Below, one piece after another: positions 48,518 to 57,806 of a stretch of DNA of 64,000 bases. This stretch comes from Herpetosiphonaceae bacterium. GTDB taxonomy: Bacteria > Chloroflexota > Chloroflexia > Chloroflexales > Kallotenuaceae. The first letter of the stretch is position 1; every line of letters starts with the position of its first letter. The notes below the pieces were generated by a model, which worked only from the letters and a program-made list of their open reading frames with translations, was not told the DNA's origin and searched no databases. The DNA is taken from assembly GCA_036374795.1 (NCBI GenBank), contig DASUTC010000264.1, positions 1 through 64,000 of the forward strand. Direction: 5' to 3'. The position numbers and the translations under genes are program-made.

Positions 48518-49960
48518 TTGTCAAAGCAATCACAACTTGAAACACACGATACCGCACAGACAGCTATAACATTTAACACCGAAGAGTTTAAAGAATCCAT
48601 TGAGCCCCAGAAAGATCCACAAAACAAACCAGCAAAGTCTCAAACAGTCTCATATCGGCAACTATTATCTAACCCCAACTTCCGGCGGCTCTGGCTAGGC
48701 CAGTCGATCAGCACCTTCGGCAGCTATTTTACCCGGGTTGCCATCCCGATCTATGTCTATAGAGTCACGGGAGGCTCCTACACACATCTTGGTCTTTCAT
48801 TCTTTGCATCGCTGCTGCCACCGCTCTTGTTTGGGCTGCTTGCCGGCGCGCTCGTCGATCGCTGGGACCGGCGGCGGACGATGATCGTGACCGATCTATT
48901 GAACATCGTCCTGCTTTGTGCGCTGATCGCCACTGTGCTATTGCCCCTGGGGTCGCTAGTTCAGCTTGGCGCGCTCTATACGATAACCTTCTTATCCTCC
49001 GCGCTCCACCAGATTTTCCACCCGGCGCGAATCGCAATCTTCACCGAGGTTGTGTCGGACGATGAGCTATTATCCGCCAACTCGCTCGATCAGTCGACGA
49101 CCAGCCTCGGCGAATTGATGAGCTATCCCCTGGCAGCGATCGTCCTGGGCTACTTCGGCCCGGCGATCGCGTTTGGCATCGATGCCGTCAGCTTTTTGCT
49201 GTCGGCGCTGCTGATCTGGCGCGTCAAAGTCCGCTCCACACCGCCCGAAACCCGCGCAAACACCAATATTTTGAGCGAGATTGCCGACGGCCTCGCGACA
49301 ATCAATAAACTGCCGCTGCTGCGCAAGCTTGCGATCCTGAGCCTGATCGTACCGCTCACCTTGTCGCTGCTGGCAACGCTTCAGTTGCCGTTCGCGGTCG
49401 AGATGCTAGGCAGCACGGAGGCGGTCGGTTACTCGACGTTAGAAGGCGCGACGGTGTTCGGCCTTCTCATCGGCACGCTGCTTCTCGGTCGATTCGGGCA
49501 GCACATCACGCGCTGGAAGCTGCTGGCGAGTGGGATAATTAGCTATGGCGCAGCCGTAACAGTCGTCGGCCTGGTGCCGGACATCGGCTTCTACCTGTCA
49601 CTGCCCGCAAAAACAGAGGGCAACCCGTGGACACCATTGTTACTGCTGGCGATGCCGTTTGTGTTTCTCCAGGGGGCGGCCAACAGCTTGATCTACACCA
49701 GCATACGCACGATGCAGCAGGAGCACAGCCCGCGCGCGATGTTAGGACGAGTCTCAAGCACGATCTCGGTCGCGGCAAGTGTCGGCTGGTCAACCGGTGC
49801 GCTCCTCACCTGGCTGGGTGAAGGACGTATCAATACGATGATTATCACCATCGGGATTATCATCTTCGTCATCGGTGTGTTGAGCCTGCGCTGGCTGCGT
49901 GTGCCGCCCGTAGAGCCTCAGCCGACAGCGAAGCAGGCTGTTCCAGAGCAATCGTTCTAG
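48518..49960 (+). CDS. MFS exporter (EntS/MFS_3-like)
   Basis: A 480-residue membrane transporter with about 12 helices. An unusual polar N-terminal tail of ~45 residues (rich in Gln, Thr, Lys) precedes the first helix. Typical MFS_3 segments follow: NPNFRRLWLGQSISTFGSYF, the loop 2-3 motif GALVDRWDRRRTMIVTDLLN, and SLDQSTTSLGELMSYPLA. Family members export siderophores or macrolides. TTG start at 48518, with GGGGAG 6 bases upstream. The first ~130 bases are AT-rich, unlike the rest, as is the 560-base spacer before it. Confidence 0.85.
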   Translation: MSKQSQLETHDTAQTAITFNTEEFKESIEPQKDPQNKPAKSQTVSYRQLLSNPNFRRLWLGQSISTFGSYFTRVAIPIYVYRVTGGSYTHLGLSFFASLLPPLLFGLLAGALVDRWDRRRTMIVTDLLNIVLLCALIATVLLPLGSLVQLGALYTITFLSSALHQIFHPARIAIFTEVVSDDELLSANSLDQSTTSLGELMSYPLAAIVLGYFGPAIAFGIDAVSFLLSALLIWRVKVRSTPPETRANTNILSEIADGLATINKLPLLRKLAILSLIVPLTLSLLATLQLPFAVEMLGSTEAVGYSTLEGATVFGLLIGTLLLGRFGQHITRWKLLASGIISYGAAVTVVGLVPDIGFYLSLPAKTEGNPWTPLLLLAMPFVFLQGAANSLIYTSIRTMQQEHSPRAMLGRVSSTISVAASVGWSTGALLTWLGEGRINTMIITIGIIIFVIGVLSLRWLRVPPVEPQPTAKQAVPEQSF

Positions 49961-49987
49961 GACAAACCTCGATCTATCATGCGCGGC

Positions 49988-50010
49988 AGGGACGGGCTAC
50001 AACCGTCCTT
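49988..50010 (+). terminator. Hairpin after the MFS gene
   Basis: AGGGACGG (49988-49995), 7-base loop, CCGTCCTT (50003-50010, one G-U), then GTTCTGT. Confidence 0.5.
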
Positions 50011-50061
50011 GTTCTGTGTCCGGCAGCCGCAGCGGGCTATGACGACTCGGCAGACGGCGGC

Positions 50062-51096
50062 TCAACGCGGCAGCGCCGCGATCCGCCGGTTGGTAACAGA
50101 AATCAGCAGCCGGGCGAGCATCATCGTGGCGGCGGGCAGCAGCGCGGGGAGCGGGCCGAGGAGCGCGAGCGGCAGCAGCGCAAGGTTGAGGCCAACCGCC
50201 CACAGCGTATTAAGGCGCAGCGCGCGCTGGACGGAGCGCGCAATCATGCGCAGCCGCTCCGGCTCCGCAGATCCGATCGGCACCGCCAGCAGATCGGGCC
50301 GATCCGCAGCCTGGCGCAGCGCAGCGCCCGATGGCACGAGCCAGCCCGCAGCCGCGGCCCGCTCCGCGCCCACGAGATAGGCCGACGATGTGGCAATACC
50401 AAGTGTGCATGGGCAGGCAGCAGCGATCGTCGCCAGCGCGGCCAGGCCGCTCTGGGCCAGATCGCGGGTCCACCACAGGTGCCAGCCCAGCGCCGCAGCC
50501 GCGCAGCCCAGCATCGCCAGACCCAGCCAGGTCATCGTGTGCTCGTGTGAGATGCGGCATGAGCGATATTCGGCTCCAGGGTGCGGCAGGTTGAGCGGGG
50601 AGAGCTGCTCAAGGACGACGACAAAGCGCTGCTCGATCTCGGCTGCCTGCGACCTTCCCGCCAGCAGCCAGGCCAGCGCCATCGCCGACGCATCGAAGTA
50701 CATCGGCGCGGTCGGCTGTGCCAGCGCAGGGCAGCTTGCGACAAACGCGGCCAGCGCGCCGAGGACGACAAGATCGGCGGCACGCAGACGGACAGGGCGC
50801 AGCGTCCGCCACGCTTCGCGCAGCAGATCGCGTGCCGTCCAGAAGGTTAGCAACGTCAGCCCGGCGCTCGACCAGACCACGAGCATCGCCCACCATCCAG
50901 CGCCGTGAGCGTCGTGAGCGCCGAGGGCCAGGATATGCAGCGGCACGCCAAGCGCCATCACCAGCATCGCCAGCAGCATACTGCGCATCGCGCGCCGCTG
51001 CAAAGCCACCGCATACGTCCGCCGCAGGTCGGCTTCGAGGTGGTCTGCCGTCCACGATACCGTATGCTCCAGGCTCGCGCTGTTTCCCGCCGCCAT
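50062..51096 (-). CDS. P-type ATPase-like membrane protein lacking catalytic domains
   Basis: A 344-residue protein with eight likely helices (38-59, 67-88, 106-125, 131-147, 187-207, 213-244, 295-316, 318-335) that follow heavy-metal P1B-ATPases in order. YFDASAMALAWLLAGRS matches the pre-A-domain helix, ACPCTLGIATSSAYLVG (Cys228-Pro-Cys230) the metal-transport helix, and SVQRALRLNTLWAVGLNLAL the first post-catalytic helix. The A domain (no TGES) is replaced by ~20 residues, and the P and N domains (no DKTGT) by ~10. It cannot be an ATP-driven pump alone. The frame is intact, AAGGA precedes the ATG, and it follows the B3/4 gene by 26 bases. Confidence 0.7.
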   Translation of the reverse strand: MAAGNSASLEHTVSWTADHLEADLRRTYAVALQRRAMRSMLLAMLVMALGVPLHILALGAHDAHGAGWWAMLVVWSSAGLTLLTFWTARDLLREAWRTLRPVRLRAADLVVLGALAAFVASCPALAQPTAPMYFDASAMALAWLLAGRSQAAEIEQRFVVVLEQLSPLNLPHPGAEYRSCRISHEHTMTWLGLAMLGCAAAALGWHLWWTRDLAQSGLAALATIAAACPCTLGIATSSAYLVGAERAAAAGWLVPSGAALRQAADRPDLLAVPIGSAEPERLRMIARSVQRALRLNTLWAVGLNLALLPLALLGPLPALLPAATMMLARLLISVTNRRIAALPR

Positions 51097-51122
51097 GCCA
51101 GATCCTTAGCCTCAGATAGCGC

Positions 51123-51803
51123 TTACTGCTCGTTAGCGGCAAGCACACGCCGATCGACGATCTGCCCGCCGCAAAAACGACTGAGCAACTGAGCCGTCTC
51201 GTCGACCGCGCGATCGATCGCCGATTGCGCCGCCTCGAAGCCGAAGATCGCAACGAGCACGCGCTGCGTCTCAGCCGTCACCATCGTACGCTGCGAGTCG
51301 GCGGTGGGGCTGCCGAAGATGCCCCGCTCATCGGCCAGCGCCAGCCGGTTGGTCGCATCGACCGCTTGCTTGCCGATCGGCTCGTACTGCTCGCCGTCCT
51401 CGCCACGGCGCACAACGGCGGCACCGACGATCTGCGCCAGATCGTAACAGCCGACCGCAAAGCCGTGCGCGAGCGAGATATAGTTGTTGATGTCGACAAC
51501 GACATTGATCTGCGGCAGCGCCCGATGGCTCAGCACGCGCCGGAGCAGCGCCTCGTTGGCGGGCCGGTAATGCGTGGGATCGTCGCCGAGTGCGCGATAG
51601 GCCCGGCGCGTGGCGGCAACGTGCGGATGATCAGCGGCAACCTTGCCCTTCAGCTCGAAGCGCAGATGCTCGCACAGCTCCTCCAGCATGGACCACAGCC
51701 CGGCATCATGCGCCTGGACACGAAGCTGCTCCGCCTCGACCAGCCCCACCAGCAGCTTCGGCAGTAGTTGTTGCACATGCGGATCGAGCGTCACAACCAC
51801 CAT
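51123..51803 (-). CDS. B3/4 domain protein
   Basis: A 226-residue soluble protein with the B3/B4 domain otherwise found as the editing part of phenylalanyl-tRNA synthetase beta: YRPANEALLRRVLSHRALPQ INVVVDINNYIS, then LADERGIFGSPTADSQRTMV. Stand-alone versions are common; some may clear mischarged tRNA, but the function is not settled. The N-terminal ~70 residues are helical. GGAGG lies about 10 bases before the ATG at 51803. It appears to form an operon with the ATPase-like gene downstream. Confidence 0.8.
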   Translation of the reverse strand: MVVVTLDPHVQQLLPKLLVGLVEAEQLRVQAHDAGLWSMLEELCEHLRFELKGKVAADHPHVAATRRAYRALGDDPTHYRPANEALLRRVLSHRALPQINVVVDINNYISLAHGFAVGCYDLAQIVGAAVVRRGEDGEQYEPIGKQAVDATNRLALADERGIFGSPTADSQRTMVTAETQRVLVAIFGFEAAQSAIDRAVDETAQLLSRFCGGQIVDRRVLAANEQ

Positions 51804-55397: not shown

Positions 55398-56732
55398 TTA
55401 GCCGATGCGGAAGTCGACTTCCAGCCGTCCGAACTGAACGCGCGCGCCGTCGTGGAGCGGCGTCGGCGTATCGGGCGCGATCCGGTTGCCGTCCACGCGG
55501 GTGTAGTTCGTGCTGTCCAGGTCCGTCAATAGCCACTGCCCGTTCTGCTCGCGCAGGAGCGCATGGCGGCGGCTGACACCGCCAGCCTCGCCGCCGTGAG
55601 GCGTTAGATCCACATCGGGATGAATCCCGCTGATGGGATCGTCGCGTCCGATCACGATCTCCTTGCCGGTAGTCGGCAGGCTAAGCACGCCGCCATCGCG
55701 GGTGACGAAGCGCGGGCCGCTCGCCTGAGGCTGTGCGGCGCTCGGCGGTAGCTGGTTGGTGCCGCCCATGGCCGGGGCAACCGGCTGACTCGGCGCTGGC
55801 TGGCTCGGCGCCGCAGCCTGAGCGGATACCGGCGCGGGCGCTTCCGGTTGCTGCGGCTGTGCTACGGGCTGCTCGGCGGGCTGCTCGACGGGCGCGGCAG
55901 CCTGAAGCTGTGGCGCTTCCGGCGCGACAGGAACGACAGGCGCGCTGCCGGTCAGCGCTTGCAGATCGGACTCGGCCTGGGCCAGGATTTTGCGCGCCTC
56001 TTCCAGCCCTTGCAGGATCGCCGGGGGCGTCGCCGCCCCAAAGTTCGCCTGCATCTGCTCAAGCTGCCCGATCAACTGGCGCTGCGTCCGAATCACCTCT
56101 TCCAGGCGCTGGCGCTCGGCGCTGGCATCCGGCGCTGCGGGAGCGACAGGCGCTTCCGGCGCGGCGGGCACTGCGGCGGCATCGGCGGTTGTGCCAGCCT
56201 CCGGCGCTGCTGCCTCGACCGGCGCGGGCAGCACGATTGCCTCTGCGGGAGCGGCGGCGAGATCGGGCGCTTCGGGCGCTGTAAGCTCCGGCTGATCGAC
56301 AGGAGCGTCGGACGGCCCGCCCTCGGCTGCGGCTGGCGCGTCGCCTTCCGTGATCTTCGCGCCGCAGTTATCGCAAAAGCGATTCTCGGCATCGTTCTCG
56401 GTGCCACACTGCGGGCACGCGATCGTCGCGGCGCTGGCGGTCGCGCCGGATGTACTCGCCGCTTCGACCGGCGCGCTGGTGGCCGCAGTTTCTTCTGTAG
56501 CAGCAGGCAGCGGCGGCGGTAGAGCCGCGCCACAATTATCGCAGAACGCCGTGCCCGGAACATTCTCCTGCCCGCAGATGGGACAAGTGCTGCTGGTCGC
56601 GCCGGAAGACGGGGCGGCCTGCGCTGCCGAGGGCGCGGCGCTCGCCTGCGATTCTTGCAGCGGCTCGCCGCACTGCTCACAGAAGCGATTTCCCTCATCG
56701 TTGACATGGCCGTTCGGACAGATAAGGGCCAT
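55398..56732 (-). CDS. Triple zinc-ribbon and FHA-domain protein
   Basis: A 444-residue cytoplasmic adaptor. Three double-CxxC zinc ribbons (ICPNGH..FCEQCG, TCPICG..FCDNCG, ACPQCG..FCDNCG) lie in the first 130 residues. Ala/Pro-rich linkers flank a coiled coil (~205-270). A C-terminal FHA domain (~350-444) carries IVIGRDD, GGVSRRHALL and LDSTNYTRVDG, the residues that grip phosphothreonine. The adjacent PP2C phosphatase makes a Ser/Thr-phosphorylation pathway likely; no kinase gene is in the window. GGAGG lies 5 bases before the ATG. Confidence 0.9.
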   Translation of the reverse strand: MALICPNGHVNDEGNRFCEQCGEPLQESQASAAPSAAQAAPSSGATSSTCPICGQENVPGTAFCDNCGAALPPPLPAATEETAATSAPVEAASTSGATASAATIACPQCGTENDAENRFCDNCGAKITEGDAPAAAEGGPSDAPVDQPELTAPEAPDLAAAPAEAIVLPAPVEAAAPEAGTTADAAAVPAAPEAPVAPAAPDASAERQRLEEVIRTQRQLIGQLEQMQANFGAATPPAILQGLEEARKILAQAESDLQALTGSAPVVPVAPEAPQLQAAAPVEQPAEQPVAQPQQPEAPAPVSAQAAAPSQPAPSQPVAPAMGGTNQLPPSAAQPQASGPRFVTRDGGVLSLPTTGKEIVIGRDDPISGIHPDVDLTPHGGEAGGVSRRHALLREQNGQWLLTDLDSTNYTRVDGNRIAPDTPTPLHDGARVQFGRLEVDFRIG

Positions 56733-56969: not shown

Positions 56970-57806
56970 CTAGACCTCAAGCCTGGTCGGCGGCTGTGTG
57001 GAGACGAGCGGCTGATGACGATCGGCGGCGATGATCACCACCGTAACATTGTCGCGACCGCCGCGCTGGTTTGCCAGCTCGACCAGGCGATCGCATGCCG
57101 CCTGCGGCGTGGGCGCGTCCGAGATCGTGCGGGCCACCTCGTAATCGGCGACATGCAGCGGCAGGCCATCCGAGCAGAGCACCAGACGCTCGCCCGTGCG
57201 CAGGTTACGCGCCGTCAGCTCAGGCTCGATCTGCGGCTCCTGTCCCAGGGTGCGGGCAAGCTGGTGCCGCTGTGGATGCGTCGTCGCATCGGCGTGTGAG
57301 ATCGCGCCCCGCCCGATCAGCTCGGCCACAACTGTATGATCGGCGGTAAGCTGGATAATATGCGGCTTGCGCGCAGCGGGACGGACCATATACGCGCGGC
57401 AATCGCCGATATGCGCGATGCGCACCCGCCGCTCGTACAGCGCGCTGAGCAGTAAGGTCGTACCCATGCCGTTGAACTGCCGCCGCGTGTGCGAGCGCGC
57501 GTGGACCGCGTTGTTTGCGGTATGCAGCGCGTGGCAGAGCGCCTCTTGCCACTGGCCCTCGGAGCTGGGGACGATCTCTTGCAGCCGCGCCGCCAGCGTT
57601 TGCACCGCAGTGCCCACCGCCAGATGGCTGGCCTCGGCTCCGGCCTGAGCGCCCCCCATCCCGTCGGCGACGGCGGCGATCACGACCCGCCGCTTGTTGG
57701 GCAGCGTCATCTCGTGAACGACGCTGGTATCTTCGTTGAACCGGCGCTGCATGCCGATGTCACTGCGCTGTGCGTAGCTGATGGACAGGGGTATATGTTG
57801 AGCCAT
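56970..57806 (-). CDS. PP2C-type serine/threonine phosphatase
   Basis: A 278-residue Mn/Mg-dependent protein phosphatase. Motifs in order: RSDIGMQRRFNEDTSVV, the metal-site VAAVADGMGGAQAGAEAS, NGMGTTLLLSAL, RIAHIGDCRAYMV, LVLCSDGLPLHV, and GGRDNVTVVII. It probably reverses kinase signals read by the FHA protein encoded next downstream (238 bases). TGC-TATAAT at about 57857-57849 on the minus strand is a probable extended -10. The Shine-Dalgarno is weak (GAAG). Confidence 0.92.
   Translation of the reverse strand: MAQHIPLSISYAQRSDIGMQRRFNEDTSVVHEMTLPNKRRVVIAAVADGMGGAQAGAEASHLAVGTAVQTLAARLQEIVPSSEGQWQEALCHALHTANNAVHARSHTRRQFNGMGTTLLLSALYERRVRIAHIGDCRAYMVRPAARKPHIIQLTADHTVVAELIGRGAISHADATTHPQRHQLARTLGQEPQIEPELTARNLRTGERLVLCSDGLPLHVADYEVARTISDAPTPQAACDRLVELANQRGGRDNVTVVIIAADRHQPLVSTQPPTRLEV

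Follow-up and report, generated by a model that had tools for sequence, protein, structure and literature searches.

A membrane core derived from a copper-type P-type ATPase, without its HMA and catalytic domains, in a Herpetosiphonaceae bacterium

We analyzed a 64,000-nucleotide stretch of Herpetosiphonaceae DNA (the window), which carries at positions 50062..51096 of the minus strand the gene for a headless P1B-type ATPase core. Sequence comparison, synteny and structural models show that this gene descends from a copper-type (P1B-1) ATPase minus its HMA, actuator (A) and P/N domains, with all eight membrane helices kept. Because a gene without the ATP-burning parts is still under selection, the pump core seems to have been retained for a new, non-pumping job. 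P-type pumps are usually regarded as inseparable from their cytosolic heads, and a selected head-free core would be a natural minimal object in which to ask whether a P1B metal site folds, binds and chooses a side without ATP machinery.

The membrane core and its missing modules

The coordinates of the open reading frame stand as originally predicted, and its strand is the minus strand. The frame runs from an ATG at 51096 to a stop codon at 50062-50064 and encodes 344 amino acids. The intact frame and ribosome site of the original prediction were both recovered, as the 344 codons are uninterrupted and a Shine-Dalgarno-like AAGGA, read from the sequence, is located at 51103..51107 (minus strand), 6 nt 5' of the ATG.

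Alignment of the headless proteins with 43 complete P1B pumps recovered the whole core: MA, MB with its amphipathic extension, M1, M2, M3, M4 with the CPC metal motif (residues 228-230, at 50407..50415 on the minus strand), M5, and M6. This bears out the claim that the membrane helices of a heavy-metal P1B pump can be followed in order, CPC included. The stretch preceding the P domain in pumps (GILIKxxEALE) is also retained, as GWLVPSGAALR. Inside segments hold 25 Lys/Arg residues and outside segments one, a positive-inside bias that fits the normal P1B topology. The P1B fold of the MA, MB, and M1-M6 core is thus found alike in the alignment, the charge bias, two AlphaFold models, and the Foldseek matches to LpCopA described below.

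Three cytosolic modules are missing from this core. The N-terminus comprises 33 residues, compared to 118-202 in CopA, and contains no HMA domains. A linker of 22 residues (166-187, at 50536..50601 on the minus strand) replaces the A domain, whereas complete CopAs have 94 residues in the same columns, or about 120 when counted to M3. The P and N domains are replaced by 29 residues (263-291, at 50224..50310 on the minus strand) that include the start of M5, compared to 261-265 in CopA. The two losses noticed at first were therefore real, although the missing HMA domains had gone unmentioned; of the linker lengths given for them, about 20 residues holds for the A domain, where we counted about 22, whereas about 10 is too short for the P/N linker, which is nearer 20-30. 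Neither the DKTGT phosphorylation site, HP and GDGxND of the P domain nor the TGES of the A domain occurs in the headless protein. Since DKTGT, TGES, and the N domain are absent, it follows that the predicted protein should be unable to be phosphorylated or to run a pump cycle, and in principle the absence of the catalytic domains would exclude ATP-driven Cu+ export.

Profile searches gave a consistent picture. The only Pfam match was to the final third of E1-E2_ATPase (PF00122, positions 118-180, E 7.6e-8), spanning M3-M4, and the Pfam search of the protein returned no HAD/hydrolase domain. Among NCBIfam models, the copper-ATPase subfamily TIGR01511 ranked first (E 1e-12), although its score of 47.7 bits remains below the curated cut-off of 397. 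In a phmmer search against solved structures, the best matches were copper P1B pumps, and separate stretches of CopA were matched in the correct order (MB-M2, M3-M4, and weakly M5). Judged by these alignments, homology to the eight-helix core of CopA-type (P1B-1) ATPases almost certainly extends over the full length of the reading frame. Its ancestry is P1B-1 but the protein is not a member of that family, because the defining catalytic features were looked for and are lacking.

Orthologue, selection and gene neighbourhood

A search for proteins of the same architecture, proposed with the original prediction, identified one in G001, a sister species in the genus of the window's genome (G000). 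This 348-residue orthologue, encoded on public contig JAFAYS010000544.1 of a Chloroflexota metagenome-assembled genome, is 49-53% identical to the window's protein, shares its three losses, and follows the same B3/4 gene. Between the two genes, identity at the three codon positions is 0.61/0.70/0.46 (second versus third position, p 1e-10), no stop codons occur, and the NG86 dN/dS ratio is 0.44 at a dS of about 1.06. In 500 neutral simulations the lowest dN/dS was 0.83, and 0.2% of the simulated sequences were stop-free (0.4% in another simulation run). These codon comparisons indicate that the gene is under purifying selection, weaker than that on the neighbouring B3/4 gene (dN/dS 0.25). With a dN/dS of 0.44 against neutral values of at least 0.83 and an open frame, the original argument for selection over decay is upheld: the gene is selected and is neither an artefact nor a fresh pseudogene, both being ruled out by the orthologue together with the dN/dS ratio. 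An assembly artefact or a mis-joining of pump fragments could be suspected because both genomes are draft and multi-contig and the sister record is a metagenome-assembled genome. However, two species whose proteins are about 50% identical in amino acids show this architecture independently, with conserved flanks; a mis-join is ruled out because two independent assemblies agree, and any artefact of this kind is hardly conceivable.

No third member was found in 158 genomes of the class (E 1e-9), where all other matches lay in frames of 552-1061 amino acids, or in 400 genomes of the phylum (1e-12; top five candidates scored per genome). A narrow peptide-pattern search of GTDB contigs returned only the same G001 orthologue, and no headless members were found in viral contigs or plasmids. 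The best identity to a pump was 31%, to a Chloroflexota CopA. In a tree of the core, the headless proteins form a very long branch (2.08) placed with weak support beside the outlier L058, probably through long-branch attraction; with this placement and the sequence divergence, the tree points to no particular parent pump.

The gene directly upstream in the same string (51123..51803, minus strand, 226 amino acids) encodes a stand-alone B3/4 domain, which is normally part of PheT. All four members of the genus carry it, with identities of 62-71% that mildly pair G000 with G001 and the two further congeners, G002 and G003, with each other. The headless gene starts 26 bp after the B3/4 gene in the window and 31 bp after it in G001, and the two B3/4 proteins are 71% identical. 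In G002 and G003 the string reads PMT-like gene, B3/4, ROK-family kinase, GNAT, DinG-like helicase, with the ROK gene directly after B3/4, nothing between them, and no headless gene. The order is B3/4, headless, ROK in G001 and B3/4, headless, then a convergent MFS gene in G000, where the ROK kinase gene is absent from the window at 49960-50062 and has no close orthologue elsewhere in the genome. Present in two of the four congeners, the headless gene has therefore, to judge from these gene orders, been put into or taken out of a pre-existing string. The pairing with B3/4 had been called odd, and the comparison lends no support to a functional pair: because two congeners keep the string without the headless gene, B3/4 appears to be a neighbour by position and probably no functional partner. 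Defence-system models gave no match.

Metal-site residues and predicted structure

In AfCopA, the high-affinity Cu+ site has been assigned to C380, C382, and M711, with Y682, N683, S714, and S715 nearby, and cytosolic entry to M158; whether E205 and D336 also belong to the entry site is debated (PMC9433437). HMA4 has the same CPC + Met site, and its release path is lined by MA, M2, and M6 and may be helped by an M2 glutamate (E387) that has an equivalent in LpCopA (PMC10973460). The conserved CPC, one of the features singled out at the start for checking together with the neighbouring genes, is present in both headless proteins (C228-P229-C230), just as B3/4 lies upstream of both genes; the same alignment column reads CPC in 41 of the 43 comparison pumps and CPH in the other two. 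Both proteins likewise retain the M6 methionine (M325), the M5 asparagine (N304), and a release-side M2 acid (D135), the last being one of only three of the 20 Asp/Glu residues common to the orthologues (D135, E163, E245). Also common to both are M37, M40, M44, M47, and H54 in MA, H61 and H64 in the outer MA-MB loop, and M139, one turn past D135.

The cytosolic entry site, in contrast to these ligands, is not preserved. The M1 entry methionine is replaced by A106, and the M2 glutamate, invariant in the 43 pumps, by A151/T in the headless pair; the third entry acid (M3 Asp) aligns, with some uncertainty, to E185 here and to Asp in the orthologue. Around the central site, CPCA has become CPCT, YN in M5 has become LN (Y to L303) with N304 kept, and MxxSS in M6 has become MxxAR (A328-R329), with M325 kept and both serines lost. 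As a class, Met, His, and Cys are not conserved above background between the two orthologues (p 0.84); for this reason the pattern of kept metal-site residues is suggestive of metal binding and is no proof of it.

The protein thus resembles P1B-1 pumps such as CopA, ATP7A/B, and HMA4 in its eight-helix order, CPC in M4, M6 methionine, release-side M2 acid, M5 N-x6-xN-x4-P spacing, positive-inside topology, and predicted fold. It differs from them in lacking HMA, A, P, and N domains, in the loss of the entry Met and Glu, in the YN to LN and MxxSS to MxxAR replacements, and in scoring far under the TIGR01511 cut-off.

Structure prediction against CopA, another check suggested in advance, was carried out with AlphaFold2 from 8-row alignments and gave pLDDT 68.8 and pTM 0.63 for this protein and 74.1 and 0.68 for the orthologue. 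Both folds match CopA, with no sign of an unrelated fold: each shows the P1B helix order, an M4 broken at CPC (213-226 and 230-249 in this protein), and an MB kinked ahead of its amphipathic end. Of the two outcomes named in advance as refuting the original prediction, a lack of orthologues with this architecture and an unrelated membrane fold, neither occurred. The best PDB match to both models in Foldseek was E2P LpCopA 4bbj, with TM scores of 0.64 and 0.66 and E values of 3.2e-5 (this protein) and 1.5e-5 (orthologue), over alignments of 669-673 columns that extend across the missing heads. Inward-facing E1 AfCopA 7r0g scored lower against both models (0.48-0.49), and 3rfu, also an E2 LpCopA structure, scored 0.64 for one and 0.47 for the other. 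These structural matches hint, weakly, at an outward-facing core.

Possible function and alternatives

We favour, tentatively and with a probability of roughly 0.4, a non-pumping, outward-facing metal-binding membrane protein that would act as a buffer, a sensor, or in metal delivery and hand-over. A soft metal such as Cu+ would enter from the outer side, passing D135, M139, and perhaps H54, H61, and H64, and would be held by C228, C230, M325, and N304; the cytosolic entry route through the M1 Met and M2 Glu is gone. The metal might then be buffered, sensed, or handed over at the outer face, or its occupancy signalled to a partner. Metal binding from the outer side would be the simplest job, given the loss of the inner entrance and the retention of the ligands at the centre and on the outer side. 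The conservation behind this reading comes from two members only, so that "conserved" means common to a single pair of proteins that are about 50% identical. Arg329 beside the metal site (SS to AR), together with the loss of Tyr (YN to LN), could abolish Cu+ binding, and this arginine may be regarded as the main argument from sequence against both metal binding and a channel. Furthermore, no metal-handling gene adjoins the headless gene, and the E2-like reading comes from 8-sequence AlphaFold models and may reflect training bias. Complete P-type pumps are already encoded in the genome, namely a CopA with two HMA domains on contig C123 and several others, so the headless protein does not substitute for a pump.

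The presence of these pumps would suit a different role, in which the core joins one of the genome's complete P1B pumps in the membrane as a regulatory or dominant-negative partner and, metal-bound or not, adjusts how that pump assembles, how stable it is, or how active it is; the retained scaffold and the lost catalysis and cytosolic entry point the same way. However, P1B pumps are mostly regarded as monomers, no pump gene is linked to the headless gene, and congeners G002 and G003 live without it; we consider such a partner unlikely. A passive path or channel, through which Cu+ or another cation would equilibrate across the membrane, could draw on the S/His/acid residues that the orthologues share in MA, M2 (D135, M139), M4 (CPC), and M6 (M325), but the loss of the entry Met and Glu and the conserved R329 at a pump serine position argue against an open cation path, and we consider a channel very unlikely. 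The gene might instead be a slowly eroding relic, or its product might be retained purely as a scaffold in the membrane without any part in metal handling, as its faster evolution than B3/4, its presence in half of the congeners, and the loss of several copper-site residues (Y, SS, entry Met) would suggest. Against this stand the uninterrupted frame, the clear purifying selection sustained over a dS of about 1.06, and the CPC pair, N304, M325, and D135 kept in a gene intact in both species; we regard a relic or scaffold as rather unlikely.

There is an even chance that this naturally evolved, motorless P-type core has been put to new use at the membrane, as a receptor or carrier for metal or as a regulator of pumps. 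It may equally well be, or not be, the P-type parallel to pseudoenzymes, with three cytosolic modules removed and the metal site kept. If a headless core does regulate or supply complete pumps, it would be a pseudo-transporter, and one from a superfamily that is present in every domain of life. Our literature search on headless, pseudo-, inactive, or transmembrane-only P-type ATPases, which lay mostly outside subscription papers, retrieved no description of such a protein. MJ0968 of Methanocaldococcus jannaschii, a soluble P-type catalytic domain, is likewise a P-type ATPase cut down to a part, and the headless protein is its mirror image, a membrane part without the head. TMEM94/ERMA is P-type-ATPase-like with disputed pump activity, one study having detected no ATPase activity (PMC12134183, PMC13322241). 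It shares the P-type fold and a helix-breaking motif in M4 with the headless protein, but it has ten helices, and its A-, P-, and N-like domains, all absent from the headless protein, are still present and folded.

Elsewhere in the window, the product of a minus-strand gene at 55401-56732 begins with double zinc ribbons, which a long linker of low complexity separates from an FHA domain at the C-terminus. This gene adjoins one for a PP2C-type phosphatase (56973-57806, minus strand), and the two products look like a phospho-signalling pair.
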